Source: Chromatiaceae bacterium (GTDB lineage Bacteria; Pseudomonadota; Gammaproteobacteria; Chromatiales; Chromatiaceae). Taken from it: a stretch of 36,222 nt of DNA. Shown in pieces: positions 115 to 13,689 of this stretch; the stretch's first letter is position 1, and each line of letters begins with the position of its first letter. Under the pieces are notes generated by a model. It ran no database searches and had not been told where the DNA came from. It worked only from the letters and a program-made list of their open reading frames with translations. Made by a program: the position numbers and the translations under genes. Location: positions 1-36,222 of the forward strand of contig JANQGF010000270.1 of NCBI GenBank assembly GCA_028277465.1. Direction: 5' to 3'.

Positions 115-597
115 TCAGTGACCAGCCCCTGGAATGCCCCAGGGACCCCACTCGGACCCCGGGCCCCTCATACCACCCATTCCGATGGGGGGCTTCTGGC
201 TCGGGTAGAAGTAGGTGTCGCCGGTCGGGGTAACGCGGAAGGAACCGGCCACATCTCCCATCGAGCTCATGCTGAGATCAGGGGCAGCCATGCCAACCGG
301 ATAGAGCGTGATGCCGGTCGGCGCGACCCGGTAGGCACCGAACATGCCGTGAAAGTCCCGAACCAGTTTCATGTTGGGATAGAGATAGGTGTCTCCGCTC
401 GGGGCGACCCGGTAGTATCCCCCCATACCGGCCATCGCCTTCAGCGCGGTGTCGACGGAGATCTGCGCCGCCTCGGACGAGCCCCCGTTCCCGCTCACTG
501 CTTCCTCTGTATCGGCTTGGGCCGTCGCGACGGCCAGGCCCAGAGCCAGGACCGCTGCAACCTTGGGCGCTTGGGCGATCGAACTCATCTCGAACAT
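115..597 (-). CDS. small exported protein with three YP-motif repeats
   Basis: The product has 160 residues. The ATG at 597 is chosen because a GGAGGAGGAG ribosome binding site lies just before it; longer starts add a low-quality extension. The N-terminus (about residues 1-28) looks like a Sec signal peptide ending ATAQA. The mature part carries three copies of a short motif: YYRVAPSGDTYLYP, AYRVAPTGITLYP and SFRVTPTGDTYFYP. Between and after them it is rich in Met and Gly (GMGGMRG near the end). One copy of the same motif (YFKITPEGAIFFYP) lies inside the Met/Gly repeat protein at 5261-6115, so I infer that the two belong to one system. The gene follows the sigma-54 regulator gene on the same strand with a 140-bp gap containing a weak sigma-54-type promoter. 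I do not recognise a family; the function is unknown. An export or surface/structural role is inference. Confidence 0.72.
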   Translation of the reverse strand: MFEMSSIAQAPKVAAVLALGLAVATAQADTEEAVSGNGGSSEAAQISVDTALKAMAGMGGYYRVAPSGDTYLYPNMKLVRDFHGMFGAYRVAPTGITLYPVGMAAPDLSMSSMGDVAGSFRVTPTGDTYFYPSQKPPIGMGGMRGPGSEWGPWGIPGAGH

Positions 598-737: not shown

Positions 738-2120
738 CTATCCTGGGGCGGAACGGCTTCCCGAACCACACGCATCCACGAGTCCATAGCGGCGAATCAT
801 CCGGTAGATGTTCCGCTCGCTCACATCGAGCACCTCGGCCACCTTGGCGCGACGGCCGGATTGTTTATGGAGTTGCAGTCGCAGATACTCGGCCTGGAGC
901 TCATCGAGGGTGGGATCGTGGTCGAAGCTTACAGTCACCTTCACACCGCTCTTCCCCCCGCTGCTGCCGAAGGCCAAGTGCTCCGGCCGAATGCTGCTGC
1001 TGTCTTGCGACAGGATGATCGCCCGCTCGATCACGTTTCTCAGCTCTCGAACATTGCCTGGCCAGTCGTAGGCGGTCAGACGGCGCAGTGCCTCGCCCGA
1101 GAGACGCTTGTTGATGCGACGCGAAAAGTTGTGGTGCTGAATGAAGTGCGCGGCCAGATAGGGAATGTCGTCGCGACGGGCGCGCAAGGGAGGCACCTCG
1201 ATGACGAAGGTGCTCAGACGGTAGAAGAGGTCCGAGCGGAACCGACCATCCAGGCTCATGGCCTCCAGGTCGCGATTCGTCGCCGCCACGATGCGCGCGT
1301 TGGCCTCCAGATTCTTGGTCCCACCGACGCGCCGGAAGACGCCCGTCTCCAGCACCCGCAGTAGCTTGGCCTGGATGGAGGCCTCGATCTCGCCGATCTC
1401 GTCGAGGAAGAGGGTTCCGTCTTCCGCGCCCTCGATCAGACCCCGCTTGAGCCGATCGGCGCCGGTGAAGGCCCCTCTCTCGTGCCCGAAGAGCTCGGAC
1501 TCGAAGAGCTTCTCCTGCAAGGAGCAGCAGTCCACCGGAACGAAGTTCCGACGCGCCCGACCGCTGCATTCGTGGACTGCGCGGGCCACCAGCTCCTTGC
1601 CGGATCCGCTCTCGCCCTGGATCAGGACATTGACGTCGGTCGGACCGACGGCCGCGATCGTCTCCTTGGTCTTCAACAGGAGGGCACTGACACCTACCAT
1701 GAAGTTGGCCATCGAGTCCCTGGCCTTCAGACGCTGCTGGCAGAAGCGATGATCGTTACGCAGCGCCGCGTCGTCGAGCGCCCGCTTCACCACCAGGCTC
1801 AGCGCATCCGGGCTGGTCGGCTTGACCAGATACTCGTAGGCCCCGGCCTTGATTGCCCCAACGGCGTCGCGCACCGACCCGTAGGCGGTCAACACCACGA
1901 CCGGCTGACTCCTGGCCAAGTCCGGCAGCCGCTCGAGTATGTCGCCGTCGGCAAGCCTCACATCGGCGATGATGAGATGCGGCTCATGGGCGGATAGATG
2001 GGCCTCCGCCCCCGCCCAGCTCCCGGTCCCGGTGGTCTCGTATCCCAGCCGATTGAGCTGACCCACGATCAGCCGATTCAGGGTCAGATCGTCTTCGATC
2101 ACCAGAATCTTCTGGGACAT
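738..2120 (-). CDS. sigma-54-dependent response regulator, NtrC family
   Basis: A 460-residue activator with the full three-domain layout. An N-terminal receiver (about 1-120) has the acidic pair E9-D10/D11 and a phospho-acceptor Asp53 in IIADVRL. A central AAA+ domain (about 140-375) has the Walker A motif GESGSGKE, the sigma-54 contact loop GAFTGA, the Walker B region GTLFLDEIGE and the R-finger region of the family. A C-terminal Fis-type helix-turn-helix reads GRRAKVAEVLDVSERNIYRM. Proteins of this type bind upstream palindromes, form rings and hydrolyse ATP to open sigma-54 promoters. The start lies 3 bp beyond the kinase stop, so the two are co-transcribed. Two palindromes with properly placed sigma-54 promoters near 4.1-4.8 kb are the likely targets (inference). 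No close named homologue is recognised. Confidence 0.95.
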   Translation of the reverse strand: MSQKILVIEDDLTLNRLIVGQLNRLGYETTGTGSWAGAEAHLSAHEPHLIIADVRLADGDILERLPDLARSQPVVVLTAYGSVRDAVGAIKAGAYEYLVKPTSPDALSLVVKRALDDAALRNDHRFCQQRLKARDSMANFMVGVSALLLKTKETIAAVGPTDVNVLIQGESGSGKELVARAVHECSGRARRNFVPVDCCSLQEKLFESELFGHERGAFTGADRLKRGLIEGAEDGTLFLDEIGEIEASIQAKLLRVLETGVFRRVGGTKNLEANARIVAATNRDLEAMSLDGRFRSDLFYRLSTFVIEVPPLRARRDDIPYLAAHFIQHHNFSRRINKRLSGEALRRLTAYDWPGNVRELRNVIERAIILSQDSSSIRPEHLAFGSSGGKSGVKVTVSFDHDPTLDELQAEYLRLQLHKQSGRRAKVAEVLDVSERNIYRMIRRYGLVDACGSGSRSAPG

Positions 2121-2123
2121 GGC

Positions 2124-3980
2124 TCAATGCTCCATCGCCGCGGCGTCCGCATCCGGGAAGAGCACGGTGAACCGACTGCCCTGCCCGAGAACGCTGTCCA
2201 CCTGAATCGCCCCACCATGGCTCTCCACGATGGCCTTGGTGATCGAAAGGCCGAGCCCCGTCCCACGGACACCATCCGCCCGGCGGCTGAAGAAGGGCTC
2301 GAAGATACGGAATCGGTCGCCAGGGCCGATACCGACACCCGTGTCCTCGAACGCGACGGCGATCTGTTCCTCCGAGCGGAAACAGCGCACCGACAGACGG
2401 CCGCCACCCGGCATGGCGTGACAGGCATTCTGAGCCAGGTTCAGGGTCATCATGCGAAGGTCGCTGTCGGCGGCCAACACCCGCAATGGACGGCCCTCGA
2501 CCTCGCAACCGAGATCGATTCCTTGCTCCTTCGCCTCCCAGCCAAGGAGCTTCACGGTCTCCTCGACGATCTGCTCCAAGACGACCAGCTCAGGCTGGGA
2601 CGGGGGGGGCATGCTCAGCTTGAGGAGACGCCCGGTCACTCGCTCGCATGTCGTCACTTCATGGTCGACCAGCTCGAGATATTCGGCGAGCTTGCCGGAA
2701 TCGGGGCGGGGGTCACGACTGATCTGCTCGACCTCGTGCAGGGCCAGACGCAGAGCCGTCAGCGGATTATGGATCTCATGGGCCACCCCGGCGGCAAGGC
2801 GCCCGAGCTCGGAGAGGCGCTGTTCATGGGAGAAACGGACCTGTTGCTCGAGATCGCGGATCGACTCCACGACCATCGGGGTCGGCCTGCCGTCTCGCAC
2901 GGCCTGCATCGGAGCGGCGTAGACCTCCACGTCCAGGCTCCCGCCATCGACCTTGGCATGCCGGTGCACGACTCGCAGCGGCTCTCCAGTCGAGAGCACC
3001 TGCTGAAGGGTACAGAGGGTCAGGGTGTCCGGACAGGGGGTATCGCGCGCGTGGGCGGCCGCGTAGCAGAACTGGGGTGGGCGATCCGTCTCCCGAAAAC
3101 CGAGCTGCTGCCGATAGGTTACGTTGGAGAGCACGACCCGATAGTCACGGTCAATCACGCGGATGCCATCCGGCACAGCATCCACCAGGCCTTGCAGAAA
3201 GACCTCCTTCTCGCGGAGCTCACGAAGCCTCGACTGCAGGCTGTCGGCCATGCGATTGAAGTGATCCCCAAGCAAGGAGAACTCGTCTCGTCCCGGCAGA
3301 TGGATGCGGGCGTCCAGGTCTCCCCGCATCAGACGCTGGCTCACCTCGGAGAGGCGCTCCACGGGCCGCATGACGTAGCGGCGGATGAACCACCAACCAC
3401 CAGTGATATTGATCAGAACGATGAGCGCCCCCGAGCCCATCAGAAGCAGGGTCGTGGTCCACGCCTTGTCGCGGATCGGGGCCGCATCGAAGTCCACGTA
3501 GAGTATCCCACCGAGCGACCTATCCGGGCGCGGCCGATCGCACCCTGGACACGCCCGATCCGTCGCGATCGGATTGACGCTGCGCAGGATCGCCCGCCCG
3601 TCCTGGTCCTCGAGCAGCCGCATCGCAGGCCAATCCTCATCCATCGCGTCCGACCGGTCGAAGGCGGCAAAGCGGCTGGCGCCGCTAGCGAAACGAAGCC
3701 CGCCCGCTGGATCGGTGAGGCTGACCCCCAGGATCCCAGGCTCGCTGGCGAGCCGGTTCACCATCTCTCGCACCCCATCGTCGTCGCCTTTGCGTATCAA
3801 GCCCTCGAGCGATGTCTGGACGAGTCGGCTGACTTGTTCAGCGGTCCTGGCGCGCTCGTCCTCGAGCTGTCCGCGATAGAGGCTCATGAAAAGGATCAAG
3901 AAGAACAGCGAGCTGACGAGGAGCCCGGCGGCCGTGCCAGCAGCGAACTTGCGGTTGAGATTGTCGTTGAGCCAGTGCAT
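2124..3980 (-). CDS. membrane sensor histidine kinase with periplasmic CPGC and a Cys-rich PAS
   Basis: A 618-residue kinase. A first membrane helix spans about residues 12-34, a periplasmic sensor about 35-172, and a second helix about 173-198. A HAMP domain (about 199-255) and a PAS domain (about 258-380) follow. Then come the H-box GVAHEIHNPL with phospho-acceptor His401 and a HATPase domain with the N-box NLAQNACHA and G-boxes DTGVGIG and GTGLGLS. The sensor contains a vicinal pair C144-P-G-C147. The PAS has the pattern CYxxxHxxxxPCxxxxxxC (C305, H310, C316, C323), which suggests metal or redox sensing; this is inference. The architecture resembles NtrY/ZraS-type kinases that pair with NtrC-family regulators, and the partner gene follows directly. 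It is divergent from the small-protein genes to the right. Confidence 0.93.
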   Translation of the reverse strand: MHWLNDNLNRKFAAGTAAGLLVSSLFFLILFMSLYRGQLEDERARTAEQVSRLVQTSLEGLIRKGDDDGVREMVNRLASEPGILGVSLTDPAGGLRFASGASRFAAFDRSDAMDEDWPAMRLLEDQDGRAILRSVNPIATDRACPGCDRPRPDRSLGGILYVDFDAAPIRDKAWTTTLLLMGSGALIVLINITGGWWFIRRYVMRPVERLSEVSQRLMRGDLDARIHLPGRDEFSLLGDHFNRMADSLQSRLRELREKEVFLQGLVDAVPDGIRVIDRDYRVVLSNVTYRQQLGFRETDRPPQFCYAAAHARDTPCPDTLTLCTLQQVLSTGEPLRVVHRHAKVDGGSLDVEVYAAPMQAVRDGRPTPMVVESIRDLEQQVRFSHEQRLSELGRLAAGVAHEIHNPLTALRLALHEVEQISRDPRPDSGKLAEYLELVDHEVTTCERVTGRLLKLSMPPPSQPELVVLEQIVEETVKLLGWEAKEQGIDLGCEVEGRPLRVLAADSDLRMMTLNLAQNACHAMPGGGRLSVRCFRSEEQIAVAFEDTGVGIGPGDRFRIFEPFFSRRADGVRGTGLGLSITKAIVESHGGAIQVDSVLGQGSRFTVLFPDADAAAMEH

Positions 3981-4093
3981 GCCTTGCGCCTGTCGCGCCC
4001 AAGATCGAGTCGCAGATGACGTGGCGACCCTCCTGACCTGGTCGCCTCCTCGCCCAATTCCGTTCTAAGCGTAGCCGTCTCCTTGCGGATGAC

Positions 4094-4110
4094 ACTGACA
4101 ATTTGTCAGT
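4094..4110. promoter_or_regulatory. perfect 17-bp palindrome, probable activator site (UAS 1)
   Basis: ACTGACAATTTGTCAGT is a perfect inverted repeat with 8-bp arms around one central T. It lies in the divergent region between the kinase gene and the next rightward gene. Its centre is 108 bp upstream of the GG of a rightward sigma-54 promoter at 4209-4224, a normal distance for an NtrC-type enhancer. A near copy (11 of 13 core bases) lies at 4711-4723 in the same relation to a second promoter. It is also about 115 bp from the kinase start, so autoregulation is possible. Confidence 0.7.
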
Positions 4111-4208
4111 TCTTGGGTCTTTCAGTTCTTCCAGCTGCCGATGCCTCTGCCCATCGACCAGTCTCGCGCCGACGCGGTCGGTCCGCTCAACCGGCTAGGG
4201 ACCCTGCA

Positions 4209-4224
4209 GGGCATGGGGCTTGCA
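4209..4224 (+). promoter_or_regulatory. sigma-54 (-24/-12) promoter 1
   Basis: The sequence GGGCATG-GGGC-TTGCA matches the consensus TGGCACG-N4-TTGCA well and has an exact TTGCA -12 element. GG is at 4210-4211 and GC at 4222-4223, with ten bases between. The expected transcript start is near 4235, about 43 nt before the ATG at 4278. The palindrome at 4094-4110 sits at an enhancer distance upstream and an NtrC-family regulator is encoded next door. Confidence 0.62.
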
Positions 4225-4277
4225 GATCAGCGATCGGGTCGACGAGATAGATCCTGACAACAAACGGGCGGGTAATC

Positions 4278-4673
4278 ATGAATAGACAGGCTAGGGCCAT
4301 CGGGGCGGGACTCTTGTGGATGGGGACCCTGGTGATGGAATCGGCATTGGCCACCGTGCCCCTGGATGAACAGCCGGACGTCATCGCCTTCGCGCGGATC
4401 GCCGGCTGGCAGATGGCGGCACTTGCCAGGAGAGTGATGGCTCGCTGCTGCTGTTCCCAGTCCATCGAGCCCGAGCCGCACCGACGGCGATGGGATCTCG
4501 CGATCGATCTCACCCCCCAACAAGGGCCCTGCCAGATTGGCAGGTGCACCGAGCCGGAGGTCGCTGCCCGCCGCCCGAGGCCCCGAGATCCCTTGAGAAA
4601 TGCTTTAAGCAACTGTTTTATTAGAGAAAGAACACATTTGCGCAGATCCGTCGTCCCCTCTTGTGCGGGATGA
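4278..4673 (+). CDS. hypothetical small exported protein, C-terminus doubtful
   Basis: The reading frame has 131 codons. The start is supported by GGGCGGG five bases before the ATG and by the sigma-54 promoter at 4209-4224. The first 25 residues (ending in ESALA) look like a signal peptide, and the next 25 or so have good codon usage. After about residue 50 the product becomes Arg/Cys/Pro-rich, and beyond about 4600 the DNA becomes AT-rich with unusual codons, so the true product may be shorter or the gene may be frame-shifted. Another frame from about 4440 to 4595 stays open and is Ser/Pro-rich. No family is recognised. A regulatory RNA or leader from the promoter is an alternative. If the gene is not real, 3981-4901 is a regulatory gap holding the two palindromes and two promoters. 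Confidence 0.38.
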   Translation: MNRQARAIGAGLLWMGTLVMESALATVPLDEQPDVIAFARIAGWQMAALARRVMARCCCSQSIEPEPHRRRWDLAIDLTPQQGPCQIGRCTEPEVAARRPRPRDPLRNALSNCFIRERTHLRRSVVPSCAG

Positions 4674-4710
4674 GAGACGACCGCGCGAGGGGTCCATAAG
4701 CAACGGCTTG

Positions 4711-4723
4711 TGACAAATGGTCA
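4711..4723. promoter_or_regulatory. imperfect palindrome, probable activator site (UAS 2)
   Basis: TGACAAATGGTCA matches the core of the perfect palindrome at 4094-4110 in 11 of 13 positions and keeps the TGAC...GTCA half-sites. Its centre is 97 bp upstream of the GG of the sigma-54 promoter at 4813-4828. The stretch between (about 4765-4800) is AT-rich, with a sequence near 4785-4797 that matches the IHF consensus only with two mismatches, so DNA bending there is possible but unproven. Confidence 0.62.
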
Positions 4724-4812
4724 GGGTCGCGAGTCGAGTTCACGCCCGCAATCCTCAGGTGACCCAGAAAAAAGACAACATAAACAATGGTTAATCTCAT
4801 GACCGACGAGGT

Positions 4813-4828
4813 TGGCGCGGATGCTGCT
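4813..4828 (+). promoter_or_regulatory. sigma-54 (-24/-12) promoter 2
   Basis: TGGCGCG-GATG-CTGCT fits TGGCACG-N4-TTGCA, with GG at 4814-4815, ten bases, then GC at 4826-4827. Transcription should start near 4839, about 63 nt before the ATG at 4902. It probably drives the small exported gene at 4902, the Met/Gly protein at 5261 and perhaps the downstream cytochrome and molybdoenzyme genes, since no better promoter was seen before 6330. Confidence 0.62.
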
Positions 4829-4901
4829 CACCGGCGGTCGGCGGTTCGTTCGGTAGCGAACCATTGGAACGATCGTAAGGTGCGACTGGGGTGCTCATCG
4901 C

Positions 4902-5201
4902 ATGAAACAGAAAGGCAAGGCTGCGGCCCTGATCAGTGCCCTCTTGGGCCAAAGCGCGCTCAGTGCATCCCTCGGCGGTTACCCCATCGCCGGGACACGA
5001 CCATCCGAACGACCCGCCGGGGCACCGGTGATCCGCGAGGTCCAGAGATCTGCCGACTGGTACAGAGGCGCGCTGACGGGAATCTCACGGCCCTATCCAG
5101 CCAGTCTCGGGTTCCTCGAGGACCAAGGGAACTGGTACACGCCCTTCAATCGACCGGGAATGCTCGGACGCTACGACCTGCGGGGTTGGCACGGCCAGTA
5201 A
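4902..5201 (+). CDS. small exported protein, unknown function
   Basis: A 99-residue product. GGGGTG lies about nine bases before the ATG, and the gene is the first after the sigma-54 promoter at 4813-4828. Residues 1-22 form a probable signal peptide (basic MKQKGK start, then an Ala/Leu core ending SALSA). The mature part is rich in Gly, Tyr, Arg and Pro (for example GGYPIAG, NWYTPFNRPG, GRYDLRGWHG) and has no Cys. I recognise no domain. The next gene, the Met/Gly protein, starts 59 bp downstream on the same strand, so they are probably co-transcribed. The Gly/Tyr bias is loosely reminiscent of sulfur-globule envelope proteins of purple sulfur bacteria, but I cannot claim homology. Confidence 0.65.
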   Translation: MKQKGKAAALISALLGQSALSASLGGYPIAGTRPSERPAGAPVIREVQRSADWYRGALTGISRPYPASLGFLEDQGNWYTPFNRPGMLGRYDLRGWHGQ

Positions 5202-5260
5202 CCCCGCCTTCCCGGAACCGCTAACTGCGCTAACTGTGAATGAACGATGGAGGATCTGGA

Positions 5261-6115
5261 ATGAAGTTGTCATTGAAGAGGTTCAAGAATGCCGCTGTTT
5301 CCGCCATTTTCGGCCTGGCCTTGGCCGGCAGCGGAACGGCGGCTTACAGCATGGGCGGCTGGGTCTGGGTGCCCTCCGGCATGGGCGGCATGTCCGGGAT
5401 GGGCATGGGCGGCATGGGCATGGGCGGCATGTCCGGCATGGGTATGTCAGGCATGCGCGGGATGTACGGTATGGGTGGTATGGGGGGCATGTCCGGCATG
5501 GGCGGCTATTGGGTGCCCGCCGGGATGTACGGTATGTCTGGGATGGGCGGCATGTCGGGAATGGGTGGCATGTCCGGCATGGGTGGCTACTGGGTGCCCG
5601 CCGGGATGTACGGTATGGGTGGCATGGGTGGCATGTCGGGAATGGGCGGCATGGGCGGCTACTGGGTGCCCGCCGGGATGTATGGCATGAGCGGCATGGG
5701 CGGCATGTCGGGAATGTATGGCATGGGCGGCATGAGCGGCATGGGCGGCATGAGCGGCATGGGCGGCATGGGCGGCATGTCGGGAATGTACGGCATGGGT
5801 GGCATGTCCGGCATGTCCGGCTACTTCAAGATCACGCCTGAGGGAGCGATCTTCTTCTATCCCTTCACCGGCATGAGCGGCATGTCCGGGATGGGTGGCA
5901 TGGGCGGCATGTCGGGAATGTACGGCATGGGCGGTATGGGCGGCATGTCGGGAATGTACGGCATGGGTGGCATGTCCGGGATGGGCATGGGCGGTATGGG
6001 TGGCATGTCCGGCATGGGCGGCTGGGTCTGGGTACCCGCCGGGATGCACGGAATGTCTGGCATGGGCATGTCGGGGATGGGTGGCATGTCCAGCTGGAAC
6101 CCACCGTCACAATGA
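5261..6115 (+). CDS. exported Met/Gly-repeat protein (24% Met)
   Basis: A 284-residue product. The ATG at 5261 is chosen over 5240 because GGAGG precedes it by eight bases and a proper signal peptide follows (MKLSLKRFKNAAV..., cleavage near GTAAYS). The mature protein is almost entirely MGG, MSG and MYG triplets: I count 69 Met in 284 residues and no Cys. The repeats are interrupted by five aromatic/Pro modules (GGWVWVPSG, three of GGYWVPAG, GGWVWVPAG) and by one YFKITPEGAIFFYP motif near residue 195. That last motif is shared with the exported protein at 115-597. No known family is recognised. Possible roles, all inference: a Met-based metal (Cu(I)/Ag) or oxidant sink, a scaffold for sulfur or another element, or a surface/structural polymer. 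The context suggests it works with the Mo-enzyme system downstream. Confidence 0.85.
   Translation: MKLSLKRFKNAAVSAIFGLALAGSGTAAYSMGGWVWVPSGMGGMSGMGMGGMGMGGMSGMGMSGMRGMYGMGGMGGMSGMGGYWVPAGMYGMSGMGGMSGMGGMSGMGGYWVPAGMYGMGGMGGMSGMGGMGGYWVPAGMYGMSGMGGMSGMYGMGGMSGMGGMSGMGGMGGMSGMYGMGGMSGMSGYFKITPEGAIFFYPFTGMSGMSGMGGMGGMSGMYGMGGMGGMSGMYGMGGMSGMGMGGMGGMSGMGGWVWVPAGMHGMSGMGMSGMGGMSSWNPPSQ
5341..6096 (+). repeat. coding minisatellite of ATGGGCGGC/ATGTCCGGC-type units
   Basis: Nine-base units coding for Met-Gly-Gly or Met-Ser-Gly are repeated with small variants through most of the gene. The longest exact copy I found is 44 bp, at 5768-5811 and 5936-5979, offset by 168 bp. All units keep the frame, so gain or loss of units would change length without breaking the protein. 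The opposite strand is also open (His/Ala repeats), which is a by-product of the repeat and not a gene. Confidence 0.85.
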
Positions 6116-6244
6116 GGACTGGCGACTGAGCCTCGATGTTGTTCCAGCACAGGGAGGTGCTGATTGGGCGCCCACCTCGGCCAGCCGGAGATGGACGCCG
6201 CGCGGTCACGGCGGGCTTCAACCAGGGCGCAAGGTGCAATGCCT

Positions 6245-6264
6245 GCCCGGGGTCTCCGCCGGGC
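6245..6264 (+). other. GC-rich hairpin between the Met/Gly gene and the cytochrome gene
   Basis: GCCCGG, eight bases, CCGGGC forms a perfect 6-bp stem. No T-run follows, so it is not a classical terminator. It lies in the 214-bp gap 6116-6329, in which I see no other gene or strong promoter. It could tune mRNA stability or read-through from the abundant-protein gene into the enzyme genes (inference). Confidence 0.35.
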
Positions 6265-6329
6265 TGCAGACGTCCTGCCGCCGACGGGAAGGAGCCGACG
6301 GACGAGCGAAACCTTCCGGAGGGTTGAAG

Positions 6330-7163
6330 ATGTCGAAGGCGGGTCGCTGGGCGATGCTCATTGCCCCTCTCTTGTGGGTGTCGGCCCAGGGGAACACCCA
6401 AATCCCCGACGGTCTCACTTATGACCAGGCCCGCTGGCATCCATTGCATTTCAAACCGGCGAGCGAGACCGCCGCAGACTATCAATGTCTCGCTTGCCAC
6501 GCGGACATCCTGGAAAGGCGTGTTCGATCCGAGTCGCCCGCGGGCGTCAAGGCAAGCGAGGCGCTGGCCTGGTACGAGACGCTCGACACCTACGAGGGCG
6601 AGGAGGAGACCTTCCATCGCCGCCATCTGGTGACCAACTTTGCAATCCAGGTCATGGACCTCAAGTGCCGCACTTGTCACCTCGGCAACGATCCGCGAGA
6701 GGAGGCCGGGATGTCCCATGCCGGCGGGGACCCGACCCTGATCCAGCGCAAGCAGGTGGATCCCGAGATCTGTCACCTCTGCCACGGCCAGTTTCCTTAC
6801 GAACACATGGGTATCCCAGGTTCCTGGCTGGAGTACGGGCCGGCGTTCCAGAACAACTGCCTGCTCTGTCACATGATGTTCCGAACCAACCGGCACCAGG
6901 TCAACTATCTGAAGCCCCAGGCGATCGAGGCCCTGGCCAAAGAGAAGGAGGACGTCTGCTTCGGCTGTCATGGCGGCCGGCCCTGGTATCGCACCAGCTA
7001 TCCCTATCCACGTCACCCCTGGCCCGGCATGCCCGAGGCCGTGCCCGATTGGGCAAAGGATCGCCCAACCGTCTCGGAGCGCCGCTTCCTGATCGGCATC
7101 GTCCCGCCAGAGGAGCTACCCGCCGCGCCACCGAAGCAAGGCGCGGCCCTCCGCACAAGATGA
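6330..7163 (+). CDS. periplasmic pentaheme cytochrome c
   Basis: A 277-residue product. The ATG at 6330 has GGAGGG seven bases upstream. Residues 1-22 look like a signal peptide. Five CxxCH heme-attachment sites are present: CLACH (53-57), CRTCH (113-117), CHLCH (148-152), CLLCH (177-181) and CFGCH (210-214). Apart from the signal there is no membrane helix, so it should be soluble or only loosely attached in the periplasm. It is not an obvious NapC/NirT type, which keeps its N-terminal anchor. The gene ends 21 bp before the DmsA-like gene and no DmsC-type anchor subunit is encoded nearby. It is therefore the best candidate to exchange electrons with the molybdoenzyme and its ferredoxin subunit (inference). 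The direction of electron flow cannot be told from sequence. Confidence 0.9.
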   Translation: MSKAGRWAMLIAPLLWVSAQGNTQIPDGLTYDQARWHPLHFKPASETAADYQCLACHADILERRVRSESPAGVKASEALAWYETLDTYEGEEETFHRRHLVTNFAIQVMDLKCRTCHLGNDPREEAGMSHAGGDPTLIQRKQVDPEICHLCHGQFPYEHMGIPGSWLEYGPAFQNNCLLCHMMFRTNRHQVNYLKPQAIEALAKEKEDVCFGCHGGRPWYRTSYPYPRHPWPGMPEAVPDWAKDRPTVSERRFLIGIVPPEELPAAPPKQGAALRTR

Positions 7164-7184
7164 CCCACAGTAGGGTGAAGAGCC

Positions 7185-9767
7185 ATGAATCGCCGCGACG
7201 ACCTCTCCTTCCTGGACGCGCGCCTCAATCTCACACGCCGCAGCCTCCTGAAATCTGCCGCCGCCAGCGCCGCGGCGTTCGGCGCCGGCGGTCTGCTCAA
7301 GCTCGAGCCGGCGCGGGCCTTCTCCTACGAGCCCTACCCGCGAGACGACGCGCTCGAGACCGTCGTGACCAGTTGCGCACACAATTGCGGCTCGCGCCAT
7401 ATGCTGGTCGCGCACAAGCAGGGTGATGTCATCGTCCGCATCTCCACCGACGACGGGCGCTATCAGCGCGATGGATTCTTCGGCAAGGACACCGAGGAAG
7501 AGCCCCAGGTACGCGGCTGTCTGCGCGGACGCGCCTACCGCCAGCGGCTCTACTCGCCGGAGCGTCTACTCTATCCGATGGCGCGCGTCGGCAAGCGAGG
7601 CGAGGGCAAGTTCAAGCGCATCAGCTGGGACGAGGCACTCGAGCAGATCGCGAACAAGATGATCGAGATCAAGCAGAAGTATGGCTCCACCGCCCTGCTC
7701 GACCAGAGCTACGCGGGTGCCTCTTACGGCGTGCTGCACAAGTCCGATCAGATCGAGGGGCTGCTCGGCCGCCTTCTCGGCATGTTCAGCTGCCGCACCA
7801 CCTCCTGGTCGGTGCCCTCGTACCAGGGCACGACCGCCAGCTCACGCTGGACCTTCGGGACCATCGAGGACGGCAACGAGGACGATACCTTCGCCCACTC
7901 CAAACTGGTCATCATGTGGGGCTGGAACCCGGCTTACACCTTCCATGGCGGCAACACCTTCTATTATCTGCGCCTGGCCAAACAGAGGGGCTGCAAGTTC
8001 GTGCTCGTCGATCCCCAGTACACGGACTCGGCCGCTTGTTACGATGCCTGGTGGATCCCGATCAAGCCCAATACGGATGGCGCCATGTTGGCGGCGATGG
8101 CCCACTACATCTTCGTCAACGAGCTCCAGGATCAGGGCTTCATCGACCGCTTCTGTCAAGGCATGGATGCCGGGACCATGCCGGTTTGGGCCTCCGGGAG
8201 CTCGAATGGCCAGGAAAACTTCAAGGACTACATCCTGGGCGCCTATGACGGTCAGCCCAAGACGCCCGAGTGGGCTGCACCCATCTGCGGCGTCTCCCCG
8301 GAGGACATCCGCAAGCTCGCCCACCTCTATGCCACGACCAAGCCGGCGGCGCTCAAGGCCTCCTGGGCGCCCGGTCGCAATGCCTACGGCGAGCAGTACA
8401 ATCGGCTGGCGGCGGCCCTGCAGGCCATGACCGCCAATATCGGCAACCTGGGGGGATGCGCCGAGGGCGTCGGCAAGGCCTGGCACGCGGAGGCCGTCGC
8501 CTATCCCTACGATCAGTATGCCAACGTCTGGTTTGCCTCGATCAAGTCGGATCGATGGGCACATTGCGTGCTGAACTATCCCAATGTCGGCCGCGAAGAG
8601 GTCGGACTCTGGCCGCGCGAGGATCAGCTCGATGGCGTGATTCCAAACATCAAGGGGATCTTCTGGCAGGGCTCGGACTGGTTCAACCAGCTCACCAACA
8701 TCAACAAAGAGATCAAGGCCATCGACAAGCTCGAGCTGGTGGTCTGCATGGATTCCACCATCACCCCCTCCGGGCTCTATGCCGACATACTGCTCCCGGT
8801 GGCCACCCACTTCGAGCGTCACGACGTCGCACTGCCCTGGTACAAGGGGCATTATTACATCCATCGGCCCAAGGTCATCGAGCCCATGGGCGAGTCCAAG
8901 ACGGATTTCCAGATCTTCACCGAGCTGGCTTACCGAATCGGCTGGAAGACGGGCCTGGGCGACCGCTTCGGCAAGACCTACAACCCGAAGGCCGACCGCA
9001 GCTACTTCCTCGAACCCGACCCGGTCGACGAGGCCTATCTGCGGCAATGGTGGGAGGGCCGCGTCATGCGCCACCAGAAGGTGGACATGCCGTGGGAGGA
9101 GTTCAAGCAGCGGGGCATCTACAAGTTCAAGCTGGATCGGCCGCACGTCGCCTTTCAGGATCAGATCGAGAAGGGCAAGCCTTTCGCGACGCCATCGGGA
9201 AAGATCGAGATCCTCTCCTCGCAGCTGGCCCAGGTCACTGACTGGACTCGGACCATGTACGGCTATCACATCCCTTCCATTCCGAAATGGATCGAGCCCT
9301 GGGAGTCACTGAACAGCCCCCAGACCGCCAAGTATCCCTTCCATTTGATCTCACCGCACCCGCGCTGGCGGACGCACTCCATCTTCAACAACTGCAGCTG
9401 GCTGCGGGAGACCTACGAGCAGGAGGTCACCATCAATGCAGCGGATGCCGCCCGGCTGCGTATCCGCACCGGCGATACGGTCGAGCTGTGGAACGAGCGC
9501 GGGCGGGTCGTGGCTCCAGCCTATGTGACCGAGCGCTGCATGCCCGGGGTGCTGGTGCTGCATGAAGGGGCCTGGCTCGACCTCGACGACAACGGCGTGG
9601 ATCGCTCCGGCAACCCGGACATGCTGACACTGGACGAGCCCAGCCCGGCCGGGGCCTTCGCCTACAACACGGTTCTCTGCAACCTCCGCAAGACCGAACT
9701 GGAGCACAGACCCGGTTGGGACAGACTCGCGACCTCACGCTCGCACGTCTTCCGGCGTGAGCTCTGA
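7185..9767 (+). CDS. Tat-exported DmsA-like molybdopterin oxidoreductase
   Basis: An 860-residue catalytic subunit of the DMSO-reductase family. A twin-arginine signal (LTRRSLLKSAAA, Arg18-Arg19) ends near PARA45, so the enzyme is exported folded to the periplasm. The N-terminal cluster-binding region reads C64-x3-C68-x3-H72...C112 (then LRGR), so the third Cys of the DmsA motif is replaced by His. By recalled alignment with E. coli DmsA, Ser212 in VPSYQ matches the Mo-ligating Ser, placing it with DmsA-type enzymes. Other DmsA-like stretches include VDPQYTDSAA, ADILLPVATHFE, TPSGKIEI and the C-terminal MPGVLVLHEGAW. It is followed by DmsB-like and TorD-like genes. Likely substrates of the family are S- or N-oxides, or chalcogen or halogen oxyanions. 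The actual substrate and the direction of the reaction are unknown. Confidence 0.93.
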   Translation: MNRRDDLSFLDARLNLTRRSLLKSAAASAAAFGAGGLLKLEPARAFSYEPYPRDDALETVVTSCAHNCGSRHMLVAHKQGDVIVRISTDDGRYQRDGFFGKDTEEEPQVRGCLRGRAYRQRLYSPERLLYPMARVGKRGEGKFKRISWDEALEQIANKMIEIKQKYGSTALLDQSYAGASYGVLHKSDQIEGLLGRLLGMFSCRTTSWSVPSYQGTTASSRWTFGTIEDGNEDDTFAHSKLVIMWGWNPAYTFHGGNTFYYLRLAKQRGCKFVLVDPQYTDSAACYDAWWIPIKPNTDGAMLAAMAHYIFVNELQDQGFIDRFCQGMDAGTMPVWASGSSNGQENFKDYILGAYDGQPKTPEWAAPICGVSPEDIRKLAHLYATTKPAALKASWAPGRNAYGEQYNRLAAALQAMTANIGNLGGCAEGVGKAWHAEAVAYPYDQYANVWFASIKSDRWAHCVLNYPNVGREEVGLWPREDQLDGVIPNIKGIFWQGSDWFNQLTNINKEIKAIDKLELVVCMDSTITPSGLYADILLPVATHFERHDVALPWYKGHYYIHRPKVIEPMGESKTDFQIFTELAYRIGWKTGLGDRFGKTYNPKADRSYFLEPDPVDEAYLRQWWEGRVMRHQKVDMPWEEFKQRGIYKFKLDRPHVAFQDQIEKGKPFATPSGKIEILSSQLAQVTDWTRTMYGYHIPSIPKWIEPWESLNSPQTAKYPFHLISPHPRWRTHSIFNNCSWLRETYEQEVTINAADAARLRIRTGDTVELWNERGRVVAPAYVTERCMPGVLVLHEGAWLDLDDNGVDRSGNPDMLTLDEPSPAGAFAYNTVLCNLRKTELEHRPGWDRLATSRSHVFRREL

Positions 9768-9855
9768 ACCGCGTCCAGCGCACGGTTCAGCGCGACGCGA
9801 ATGACCGACGACACCAGCCAAGGTCGGCGGGCGATTCCAAGCGGAGACCGAATCC

Positions 9856-10524
9856 ATGGCTGAACAGAAAGACCAGGCGAAGATCAAGGAGGCGATCAAG
9901 CGCCGCAAGCGAGAGACCTATACCCCGGTGGTCCCGGACATGCAGCTCGGGTTCGTCCACCACAATGTCGATTGCATCGGCTGTCGCGCCTGTGAGATCG
10001 CCTGCAAGGACAAGAACGGCCTGCCACCTGGACCGCGGTTCCGGCGTGTCCTCTATATCGAGGGGGGGACCTATCCCGAGGTCTATGCCTACAAGGTCAA
10101 CCTCTCCTGCAACCACTGCGCGGAGCCCGCCTGTCTGCCGGCCTGCCCGACCGGGGCCATCTGGAAGCGCAAGGACAACGGGATCGTGGATATCGACTCG
10201 ACGCTCTGCATCGGCTGTCGACGCTGCGAAGCGACCTGCCCCTATGGTGCGCCCCAGTTCATCCCTGAGGAGAAGATCGTCTCCAAATGCAATCTATGCG
10301 TGGACGAGATCGAGGCGGGCCGCAAGCCCTACTGTGTGATGGCCTGCATGATGCGGGTGCTGGACATCGGCCCCATCGATCTGCTGGCCGAGAATCGCGT
10401 CCCCACGCCTGCCATCGGACCCAACGAGGAGCCGGTGCGCCTGGTCAAGGGTTTCGCGGATCCGGAGCTCACCAATCCCTCCATCCTCTTCGTGGCCCAC
10501 AGCAAGGGGAAGGTCGAAAGATGA
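9856..10524 (+). CDS. DmsB-like ferredoxin subunit with four [4Fe-4S] clusters
   Basis: A 222-residue protein preceded by GGAGA. It has sixteen cluster Cys in the usual four-group pattern: CIGCRACEIAC, CNHCAEPACLPAC, CIGCRRCEATC and CNLC...C...C. It begins without a signal peptide, as expected for a subunit that is carried through the Tat pore with the signal-bearing catalytic subunit. It would pass electrons between the molybdoenzyme and an outside partner, here probably the pentaheme cytochrome. It is separated from the catalytic gene by 88 bp and overlaps the next gene by ATGA. The C-terminal 35 or so residues after the last cluster group match no motif I know. Confidence 0.93.
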   Translation: MAEQKDQAKIKEAIKRRKRETYTPVVPDMQLGFVHHNVDCIGCRACEIACKDKNGLPPGPRFRRVLYIEGGTYPEVYAYKVNLSCNHCAEPACLPACPTGAIWKRKDNGIVDIDSTLCIGCRRCEATCPYGAPQFIPEEKIVSKCNLCVDEIEAGRKPYCVMACMMRVLDIGPIDLLAENRVPTPAIGPNEEPVRLVKGFADPELTNPSILFVAHSKGKVER

Positions 10525-11312
10525 CTGCCATCGCTCGCCAGATCCCGATCGCCGCCCCGACCATCGCGTCCTTCCGCAGGGCGGCCGCCGAGGACCTGCT
10601 CACCCTCGCGCTGCTACACGACCGGGAGTTGGACCGCGGGCTGGTCCTATCACTCTGGGAGCACTGCTACGAGGACTTCCTGGGGCTGCGTCTGCAAGGA
10701 AGGCGCGGCTCGGAGGCACTGGCACTGCTGCGCGAGGGCCTGACGGACCTGCCGACCGATTTGGGATCCGAGACCCTCGACCGGCTCGCCGCCGACTATG
10801 CAGACATCTACCTGACCTATGGGCTGCGGGCCTCGCCCTGCGAGTCGGTCTGGCTCGATCAGGACAACCTCAGGTTGCAGGCGCCCATGTTCCGGGTCCG
10901 CGACTGGTATCGGCGTCATGGCGTCACAGTCGAGGATTGGCGTAAGCGCAGCGACGACCACCTGGTCCATCAATTGCGTTTCCTATCCCATCTGATCGGC
11001 ACCGAGGGGGGACGAGTGGATCTCACCGAGGCGGCAGGCTTCATGGACGAGCATCTCCTGCAGTGGATCGACCGCTTCGCCGAGCGCGTGGTGTCCCGGT
11101 GCGCGACCCGCGTCTACGCGGGCCTGGCCCTCCTGACCGCAGCCTATCTCGATGAGCTTCGCGATCTCATCGCCGATCTACTCGGGACTCCCCGCCCACT
11201 CCCGGAAGCGCTCGCAACGCCGATCGCGCAGGAGACGTCGCCGGGACCTGCCCCCGGCCGGCACCGCGAGCTGGGCGCCTCCCACTTTCCGCAGGCGGTA
11301 CCCGGCTGGTAG
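10521..11312 (+). CDS. TorD/DmsD-family chaperone for the molybdoenzyme
   Basis: A 263-residue product starting at the ATG inside the ATGA overlap with the ferredoxin-subunit gene, so it is translationally coupled. TorD-family features are visible in the middle: YADIYLTYGLRASPCESVW, then PMFRVRDWYRRHGV, then the DDHLVHQLRFLSHLIG helix region. Such proteins bind the Tat signal of a partner molybdoenzyme in the cytoplasm, hold it until the cofactor is inserted and prevent early export. The partner should be the product of 7185-9767. The protein is longer than usual because of a Pro/Arg-rich C-terminal tail of about 40 residues with no clear fold. Confidence 0.88.
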   Translation: MTAIARQIPIAAPTIASFRRAAAEDLLTLALLHDRELDRGLVLSLWEHCYEDFLGLRLQGRRGSEALALLREGLTDLPTDLGSETLDRLAADYADIYLTYGLRASPCESVWLDQDNLRLQAPMFRVRDWYRRHGVTVEDWRKRSDDHLVHQLRFLSHLIGTEGGRVDLTEAAGFMDEHLLQWIDRFAERVVSRCATRVYAGLALLTAAYLDELRDLIADLLGTPRPLPEALATPIAQETSPGPAPGRHRELGASHFPQAVPGW

Positions 11313-11325
11313 CCCCGCGACCCCA

Positions 11326-12399
11326 ATGGCACTCCATCCCGGGAGGACCAAACCGCCAGATCTGCCGCTCCCGGAACTGGATGCGGCCCGGTGCGTCCAC
11401 TCGCACCTGGAGCAAGCGAGCTGCCATGCCTGCGTGGATCGATGCCCCAACGGCGCTTGGTTGTTGGACGATGAGCGGTTGGGTCTCGATTCGACCCGCT
11501 GCGACGGCTGTGGTCTCTGCGCGCCCGCCTGCCCCGAAGAGGCCATCGCGGAGACCTTTGTGCCGGTCCATTACGAGCTCGAGGGTCGCGGCAACGCCTT
11601 CGCTGCCTGTGTCCTCGCCGGCGTCCGGACGGATCGCGGGACGGCCCCGGAGGGGCTCCTGCCTTGTCTGCACGTTCTGGGGGTGCGCATACTCCTGAGG
11701 TTGCACCAAGCGGGCGTGCGGCGTCTCATGCTCTGCAGTGGCGACTGCGATTGCTGTCCGCGCGGAAGAGTCACCCGCATCGAGTCCTCGCTCGCGCAGG
11801 TCGAGGCATTACTTCGGGATCGGGGTCTCGATCCCTTGGAGGTCATCGCGCTCGAGCCGAAGGCGTGGGTGGTTCGCTTGGAGGCTGCCCGTGAACGACA
11901 CCAGCCGTCGGCACTCGGCCGGCGCAGCTTTCTGCGCGGCGTCCTCTCGGCCGCCACCGAGACGGCGAGCGAGCTCGCAGAGGGGATCGGTCGCCGTCGG
12001 CCGGCCAGCACCCCGCCGGGCCGATTGGTCCCGCGCCCGGCCGGCAGCGGACTGCGGCTTCACGCCCCGCGGATCCAAGCCGAGCGCTGCACCGGCTGCG
12101 ACGCCTGTGTCCGTCTCTGCCCCCACGAGGTCATTCGGGTCGAGGCGCAGGCCTATCGCTTCGCCCCGGACGACTGCACTGGGTGCGGCATCTGCACCGA
12201 TGTCTGCGCCTCAAGCGCGATCTCGATCCGCCGGCTGGACCCCTCCCCTCCAAACCGGGTCCAGCTCTACCCCGGCCGGTGCGCGGCCTGTGGGATCGCC
12301 TTCCACCTGCCGCGGCCGAGAAGCGGCTCGGCAAGGGACCTCTGCCCCATCTGTGCACGAACGAACCACCATCAGCGGCTCTTTCAGCGGTTCTCTTAA
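11326..12399 (+). CDS. multi-cluster iron-sulfur protein with internal RRSFLRG motif
   Basis: A 357-residue product if translation starts at the ATG at 11326; no clear ribosome binding site is seen and the frame is open further upstream, so the start is tentative. The N-terminal third has two ferredoxin groups (C33-x2-C-x3-CP and CDGCGLCAPACP at 59-70). A middle stretch contains a CSGDCDCCPRG motif (137-147). Residues 198-210 read LGRRSFLRGVLSA, which resembles a Tat motif but is far inside the protein. Two more [4Fe-4S] groups follow (CTGCDACVRLC, CTGCGICTDVC), then CAAC...CPIC, a zinc-ribbon-like pair. It looks like an N-terminal ferredoxin module joined to a NapF/NapG-like module. It follows the TorD gene by 13 bp, so a role in assembly or electron supply for the molybdoenzyme is inferred. 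Confidence 0.8.
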   Translation: MALHPGRTKPPDLPLPELDAARCVHSHLEQASCHACVDRCPNGAWLLDDERLGLDSTRCDGCGLCAPACPEEAIAETFVPVHYELEGRGNAFAACVLAGVRTDRGTAPEGLLPCLHVLGVRILLRLHQAGVRRLMLCSGDCDCCPRGRVTRIESSLAQVEALLRDRGLDPLEVIALEPKAWVVRLEAARERHQPSALGRRSFLRGVLSAATETASELAEGIGRRRPASTPPGRLVPRPAGSGLRLHAPRIQAERCTGCDACVRLCPHEVIRVEAQAYRFAPDDCTGCGICTDVCASSAISIRRLDPSPPNRVQLYPGRCAACGIAFHLPRPRSGSARDLCPICARTNHHQRLFQRFS

Positions 12400-13100
12400 T
12401 GCCGGAGCTCCGCCAGACGGTCGAGAATGCCGAACAAGGCCCCGTGGATCCGCGCATAATCGTGCGCATCGGCCGCCAGCATGCGCTCGGCACTCTGGAC
12501 AGAGGTCGATCGAGGCTCGATCTCCTCGGCACAGTGGGCAAGGAGGTCGGCGACACCCTCGGGCGTGGATTCCAGGTGGCACTGCAACCCGAGCACCCGC
12601 CCATCGTAGAGGAAGACCTGTTGACTGCAGGCCGCGCTACGGGCCAGATGGATGGCGCCCGGGGGGAGTTCGAAGGTATCGCCGTGCCAGTGGAAGACCT
12701 GGATCCGGTCGGGCAGGAAGCCCAGCACGGACGAGGATCGCCCCGCCTCGGTCAGTTCGATCGGGAACCAGCCGATCTCTCGTTCCGGATTGGGATGGAC
12801 CGCCGCACCCAGTGCATGGGCGATCAACTGGGCGCCGAGACAGATGCCGACGACCGTCTTGCCGGCAGCGATCGCCTCGCCGAGGAAACGCTTCTCGGCG
12901 GCGAGCCAAGGGTGCTCGGCCTCGTCGTGGACACCCATGGGGCCACCCATGACGATCAGCCAGTCGAAGTCGGTCGGGCGGGGTAACCCCTGCCCTTCGA
13001 AGACCGGGGTCAGGCTCAGCGTATCGCCACGCCGCCGCGCCCAGTCGGCGATCACGGCGGACCCTTCGAACGGGACATGGGTAAGACAGTGAATCCGCAT
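12396..13100 (-). CDS. class-I glutamine amidotransferase (GMP-synthase-like)
   Basis: A 234-residue stand-alone amidotransferase domain. The nucleophile Cys87 sits in GICLGAQ, and the His-Glu pair is in QCHLES near residue 182. The oxyanion-loop region reads VMGGPMGVHDE. Proteins like this are often annotated as type-1 glutamine amidotransferases or as gamma-glutamyl peptidase relatives; the substrate cannot be told. The ATG at 13100 (MRIHCLTH) starts the conserved domain; a longer upstream start adds 12 residues. It lies 22 bp downstream of the Nudix gene, so the two may share a transcript. It converges on and overlaps the iron-sulfur gene by four bases at the stop codons. Confidence 0.86.
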   Translation of the reverse strand: MRIHCLTHVPFEGSAVIADWARRRGDTLSLTPVFEGQGLPRPTDFDWLIVMGGPMGVHDEAEHPWLAAEKRFLGEAIAAGKTVVGICLGAQLIAHALGAAVHPNPEREIGWFPIELTEAGRSSSVLGFLPDRIQVFHWHGDTFELPPGAIHLARSAACSQQVFLYDGRVLGLQCHLESTPEGVADLLAHCAEEIEPRSTSVQSAERMLAADAHDYARIHGALFGILDRLAELRH

Positions 13101-13122
13101 TAGGCGATTGACAGAAATCGCC

Positions 13123-13689
13123 TTAGCAGCCCGCATCCTCCGACATGAATTCGACCGCGCTCCTGATCAAGGCACCGGCGCGATAGAGGCCCACCAGGGT
13201 CTTGGCATCCGTGATGGTCCCGTCGTTGCACCAGTCCAATGCCTGTCCGAGCGGAAGCCAATGGATCTCGATCACCTCGCCATCCTCGTGCTCGTGCGGC
13301 TGACGACTCAGGCCGCGCGCGAGCCACAGATGAATCACCTCGGTGAAGATACCGGGCGAGCTGTGCATGGATCCCAGGTCGGCCCAATCGGAGGCCTGCA
13401 AACCGGCCTCCTCGGAGAGCTCGCGGCTGGCGGTGTCGAACGGCGATTCACCCGGGTCGATCCGACCAGCCGGCAGCTCCCACAGCCAACCACTGCCGGC
13501 ATGACGGTACTGGCGCAGCAGACAGACTCGGTCTTGGTCGTCCAAGGCCACCGTCGCGGCCCCACCAGGATGGTGTACGATCTCGAGCTCCACTTGGCCG
13601 CCGTTGGGAAGCTCCACCGTCTCCAGTGCCACCTCAATCACCCGCCCCGGGTAGATCGGCTCGCGTTTCACAATTTGGCCTTCACTCAT
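13123..13689 (-). CDS. Nudix hydrolase, ADP-ribose pyrophosphatase type
   Basis: A 188-residue product. The ATG at 13689 has GAGGAGATAGC just upstream, better than longer starts. The Nudix box fits GX5EX7REUXEEXGU exactly, from GRIDPGE through REL to EEAGL. The LRQYRHAGSGWLWELPAGR run before the box is typical of the ADP-ribose pyrophosphatase (NudF-like) branch, which cleaves ADP-ribose to AMP and ribose-5-phosphate in the cytoplasm. The N-terminal strands (IVKREPIYPGRVIEVALETVELPNG) also fit that branch. The exact substrate is an inference from the branch. Confidence 0.88.
   Translation of the reverse strand: MSEGQIVKREPIYPGRVIEVALETVELPNGGQVELEIVHHPGGAATVALDDQDRVCLLRQYRHAGSGWLWELPAGRIDPGESPFDTASRELSEEAGLQASDWADLGSMHSSPGIFTEVIHLWLARGLSRQPHEHEDGEVIEIHWLPLGQALDWCNDGTITDAKTLVGLYRAGALIRSAVEFMSEDAGC

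Follow-up and report, generated by a model that had tools for sequence, protein, structure and literature searches.

Conserved palindromes and sigma-54-type promoter elements point to an NtrC-type regulon of exported and redox proteins in Chromatiaceae and their relatives

Two-component enhancer-binding proteins of the NtrC family (AtoC, ZraR and NtrC types) share a receiver, an AAA+ domain with GAFTGA and a Fis-type helix-turn-helix (HTH). They have an adjacent membrane kinase, and their palindromic upstream activating sequences (UAS) precede -24/-12 promoters by about 100 bp, the typical distance for such activators. With regard to the genes described below, the closest known systems are MrpX/YedYZ (MsrPQ) of Azospira, a methionine-cycling hypochlorite defence (PMC4623255), and the DorA-type periplasmic DMSO reductases, which reduce protein methionine sulfoxide and carry the motif SYGW (PMC7402097). 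Sensors of the sCache_heme type (DUF3365/Tll0287) contain a CXXCH in their Cache domain (PMC12889525).

We analyzed a 36,222-nucleotide stretch of Chromatiaceae DNA, here called the window, which is contig 202 of a genome of 4.31 Mb in 418 contigs. A preliminary description of this sequence had proposed that two palindromes, each about 100 bp upstream of a good GG-N10-GC promoter, define a local regulon of an NtrC-family activator encoded next door together with its kinase. Both genes were found as described, and the regulator has the layout of the known types, including an AAA+ sigma-54 interaction domain with GAFTGA; its HTH_8 match (20.2 bits) lay under the cut-off of 22 bits, the HTH sequence being nevertheless conserved in orthologues. 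The genome encodes rpoN on contig 139, and UAS with -24/-12 elements precede the candidate target genes, consistent with membership in this family. For each named NCBIfam equivalog shown, the regulator's score fell far short of the cut-off (AtoC, 365 vs 714 bits), and we know of no system whose targets and UAS sequence match those found here.

Features of the locus, with positions counted from the first letter of the window (UAS and promoter elements are predictions from sequence)
Feature	Position	Strand	Remarks
NtrC-family response regulator	738..2120	-	receiver, GAFTGA AAA+, Fis-type HTH; proposed UAS-binding activator
Membrane sensor histidine kinase	2124..3980	-	Cache-like periplasmic domain, HAMP, PAS, HisKA, HATPase_c
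UAS1	4094..4110		ACTGACAATTTGTCAGT; upstream of P1
P1, sigma-54 -24/-12 element	4209..4224	+	GGGCATGGGGCTTGCA; 113 bp from UAS1 core
exp1	4278..4673	+	probably what remains of an exported DGS-repeat protein after truncation/frameshift
Distal UAS	4530..4542		TGCCAGATTGGCA; 283 bp upstream of P2
UAS2	4711..4723		TGACAAATGGTCA; 102 bp upstream of P2
P2, sigma-54 -24/-12 element	4813..4828	+	TGGCGCGGATGCTGCT; kept at exp2 in relatives
exp2	4902..5201	+	exported, 99 aa; first gene of the likely P2 operon; YPIAG..RPxGAP..WYTPFxxPGM..YDIRGW
Met/Gly-repeat exported protein	5240..6115	+	YFKITPEGAIFFYP insert
Pentaheme c-type cytochrome	6330..7163	+
DMSO-reductase-family molybdoenzyme, large subunit	7185..9767	+	Tat-type; predicted Ser Mo ligand
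DmsB-like 4Fe-4S subunit	9856..10524	+
NarJ/TorD-type chaperone	10521..11312	+
Polyferredoxin-like protein	11326..12399	+	conserved with the cluster

Direct reading of the sequence confirmed both palindromes. UAS1 consists of ACTGACAA-T-TTGTCAGT, a perfect palindrome (8+1+8), and UAS2 matches the 13-bp core of UAS1 at 11 of 13 positions, with an imperfect right half-site. The promoters are likewise good ones: with our approximate, self-made sigma-54 matrix, P1 scored 13.9 bits and P2 14.1 bits, and both fit TGGCACG-N4-TTGCW. The two spacings in the table, measured from the start of the core to the T of the -24 element, differ by about one helical turn. Helical phasing of the UAS distances is suggestive only. 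A distal UAS, at 164–285 bp, is common among relatives.

Within the window alone, TGACAANTKGTCA with up to two mismatches occurred seven times against 2.2 expected, a modest excess, and the -24/-12 consensus was not more frequent than chance. The significance of the sites therefore comes from the combination of motifs and from conservation, not from window-only counts. The window's own genome contains only three matches to TGACAANTTGTCA when one mismatch is allowed, two of them being UAS1 and UAS2; the third, C283:6328, is without any -24/-12 element and was dropped as a regulon member. A regulon extending across the window's own genome was also rejected, as among nine TGMCANNNTGKCA sites a well-placed strong sigma-54 element was present only at those in the window. 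Terminator and sigma-70 promoter scans of positions 3900–13200 gave no excess over shuffles.

To characterize the conservation of the sites, we compared the neighborhoods of regulator orthologues, found in 13 of 54 other sampled genomes, all of one family, together with two loci from named genomes (Thiohalocapsa halophila and a Chromatiales MAG). The recurring gene order is regulator–kinase followed by exp2, Met/Gly repeat, cytochrome and Mo enzyme. With fixed thresholds (sigma-54 score of at least 12 bits, UAS of at least 9/10, spacing of 60–160 bp), 24 pairs of UAS and sigma-54 element were detected in 16 related loci (234 kb), against a mean of 0.25 in 20 dinucleotide shuffles. All 24 are coding-oriented and lie in the kinase–exp2 interval or, in one relative (L027), upstream of the cytochrome and Mo-enzyme genes.

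An exp2 profile search was positive in 14 of 369 sampled gammaproteobacterial genomes, and newly gathered exp2 loci had the pair in 10 of 12 cases. Six exp2 loci held out until late gave the pair in four (90, 91, 102 and 104 bp), a weak site in one (92 bp) and none in one. Among the 33 exp2 loci found independently of the DNA pattern, from about ten gammaproteobacterial families, the UAS lies at 98–105 bp in 24 and at 90–112 bp in 28, many of these sites coming from related genomes and not being fully independent. When the two loci found via the pattern itself are included (n = 35), the UAS is at 98–105 bp in 26, at 112 bp in two and at 90–91 bp in two, and no clear pair was seen at the expected place in five (L028, L072, L074, L112 and L115). 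Spacings of the P1 type are looser in other clusters, ranging between 69 and 147 bp. One genome (G016) holds two kinase/regulator/exp2 clusters (C38, L029; C172, L038), each with UAS and promoter.

The preliminary description had considered the matching geometry of the two pairs hard to explain by chance. The modest excess in the window would by itself leave room for palindromes and promoter-like sequences to co-occur accidentally in GC-rich DNA; conservation across families, the near-empty shuffles and the specificity of the blind scan described below speak so strongly against this that we regard a chance origin as already refuted by the cross-species footprint.

Over 42 promoters, the core of the palindrome is TG[AC]CA-AWT-TG[TG]CA. 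The columns flanking the searched core are C in 33 and G in 37 of the 42; as these lay outside the selection, they extend the palindrome independently of it. The strict pattern TGACAAnTkGTCA of the preliminary description is too narrow, relatives having TG[AC]CA-N3-TG[TG]CA with the C and G flanks. At least one of the 42 promoters (L073 2228) is probably a chance match.

We scanned 57 Chromatiaceae genomes blindly with two gapped patterns and obtained 32 matches, among which 15 have a sigma-54 score of at least 14 bits and all others less than 12 bits. The strong matches comprise 13 exp2 promoters of the cluster and two promoters in a single relative (G024), where they precede an exported c-type cytochrome (L105, C213) and a Tat/4Fe-4S redox complex (L106, C230); the same UAS and sigma-54 pair at both therefore indicates a larger regulon in that genome. 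Clusters in two genomes (G411 and G404) were discovered by the DNA pattern alone, and both contain exp2 as well as the repeat protein. Of the 57 genomes, 23 encode the regulator, 21 exp2 and 20 both, a near-perfect co-occurrence (hypergeometric p = 2.8e-11, a statistic that ignores kinship). Fixed spacing across species, a blind scan that lands on the cluster and this co-occurrence all support a local regulon.

These results also bear on the question of which protein binds the palindromes. A different regulator, e.g., a global redox regulator, could occupy them while the neighboring one uses other sites; the genome does contain other TGMCANNNTGKCA copies without sigma-54 promoters. We consider this very unlikely, given that strong pairs are nearly confined to genomes that encode this regulator and to the neighborhood of its gene, that the spacing of about 100 bp to the -24 element fits enhancer-binding proteins, and that we saw no second regulator accompanying the cluster across all loci.

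Built on the observed sites, spacing, conservation, linkage, co-occurrence and protein domains, our best explanation, in which we have high confidence as a whole, is that the adjacent NtrC-type regulator would recognize C-TG[AC]CA-N3-TG[TG]CA-G and activate sigma-54 RNA polymerase at P1 and P2, with P1 driving only the probable exp1 remnant in this genome. The kinase would phosphorylate the regulator, which would then bind UAS1, UAS2 and the distal UAS; DNA looping would bring it to the promoters, where its GAFTGA AAA+ domain would open the RNA polymerase waiting at the -24/-12 elements. As sequence and spacing are kept in dozens of related bacteria, these switches almost certainly turn on exported proteins that have received little study, one of them packed with Met, and the molybdenum enzyme behind the exported genes is probably also under their control.

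The two small exported genes originally assigned to the regulon fared differently: exp2 carries the conserved footprint, whereas exp1 is probably decayed. In relatives, P1 faces an exported protein of 250–450 aa that contains GW...DGSLLLYP repeats and whose C-terminal domain (LPVDxW...VGKIRKI...VYLVSIV) is conserved; Pfam offered no convincing family for this protein. In the window, the frame breaks between ...IAGWQMAALA, read in frame 1, and ESDGSLLLFPV, read from 4430 in another frame, and the C-terminal domain is missing. Judged by its sequence, exp1 is thus probably a frameshifted and C-terminally truncated remnant of a protein intact in most relatives; a sequencing error could also have broken the frame, but decay is favored because the C-terminal domain is absent.

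The broken rightward gene, together with the position of UAS1 between the kinase start and P1, might suggest that this region mainly autoregulates the divergent kinase–regulator operon, the rightward promoter being a relic in this genome. We hold this to be unlikely: the minus strand offers just a weak sigma-54-like match at 3991 (10.2 bits), which was rejected as a kinase promoter because it overlaps the kinase start codon, and P1 faces an intact gene in many relatives.

P2 likely heads an operon running from exp2 through the Met/Gly-repeat protein and the pentaheme cytochrome to the molybdoenzyme, with intergenic gaps of 38, 214 and 21 bp and no convincing terminator between P2 and the Mo-enzyme genes in the scanned region. 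We found no UAS immediately before the window's own Mo-enzyme genes, so we infer their regulation here, most likely by read-through from P2. Their inclusion, which the preliminary description had called probable, gains support from L027, where the genes for the cytochrome and the Mo enzyme are preceded by a UAS and sigma-54 promoter of their own. In another relative (L031, 18540–20000), these genes are present twice, the second copy adjoining the first cluster. Exp2 belongs to an uncharacterized family, with no Pfam family above cut-off and an uninformative AlphaFold model (pLDDT 60). The Met/Gly-repeat protein contains 27% Met, 40% Gly and no Cys past the signal region. A further exported protein encoded at 115–597 (minus strand) has three YRVAPTGDTYLYP-type repeats resembling the insert of the Met/Gly protein; neither UAS nor strong sigma-54 promoter was seen upstream of its gene.

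The kinases of most relatives contain a periplasmic CxxCH in the Cache-like domain, a possible site for heme c, which has degenerated to CPGCD in the window kinase and is also gone from its two nearest relatives (L025 and L004). In the cytoplasmic PAS region, three Cys (C304, C315 and C322, L031 numbering) are invariant in 16 of 16 kinases. Comparison of the sensor domain with PDB sequences gave no significant match.

For this widespread and apparently unnamed cluster, a candidate regulator is now defined, along with its proposed binding motif and the two promoters. A P2 reporter would offer a simple route to the inducing signal, and the motif can be used for finding further regulon members, as it already has been in one relative. 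Literature searches, whose coverage was incomplete with subscription literature mostly outside it, returned no published description of the module.

The locus resembles MrpX/YedYZ in that an exported Met-rich protein and a periplasmic molybdoenzyme are encoded side by side and have a regulator of their own. The enzyme, however, is of the DMSO-reductase type instead of a YedY-type (sulfite-oxidase family) MetO reductase, it is accompanied by the pentaheme cytochrome and exp2, and regulation would run through a sigma-54 two-component system rather than through SigF/NrsF. Ser as predicted Mo ligand (TSWS aligning with GDYS of DMSOR), Tat export (start RRSLLKS) and fold homology place it in the DMSO reductase family of S/N-oxide reductases. 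By alignment it shares the fold family and the Ser at the Mo-ligand position with DorA; in contrast to DorA, it has SYAG in place of SYGW, as well as a DmsB-like subunit and the cytochrome, and no DmsC/NrfD-type anchor was found among the genes examined. The relatives' kinases resemble sCache_heme sensors in having a periplasmic Cache-like domain with CxxCH between late strands, but Pfam Tll0287 scores are below cut-off and the window kinase has lost the motif.

A Met/Gly protein beside a Ser-ligated DMSO-reductase-type enzyme recalls the methionine-cycling defences (PMC4623255, PMC7402097), by analogy with which a periplasmic methionine-redox system is a plausible function. We propose only tentatively the full scheme of an undescribed gammaproteobacterial system, in which a Cache kinase, often with heme c, would sense an oxidant or redox signal, and sigma-54 would induce a Met-rich sacrificial protein and a cytochrome-coupled DMSO-reductase-type enzyme that regenerates its oxidized methionines. 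The absence of SYGW, the presence of the DmsB-like subunit and cytochrome, and the employment of this switch for a different redox complex in G024 count against it, and a role connected with respiration or sulfur is just as plausible. The module itself appears to be undescribed, whereas its regulatory logic appears to be that of an ordinary NtrC-type regulon, most likely working in the conventional manner through kinase, regulator, UAS, looping and sigma-54.
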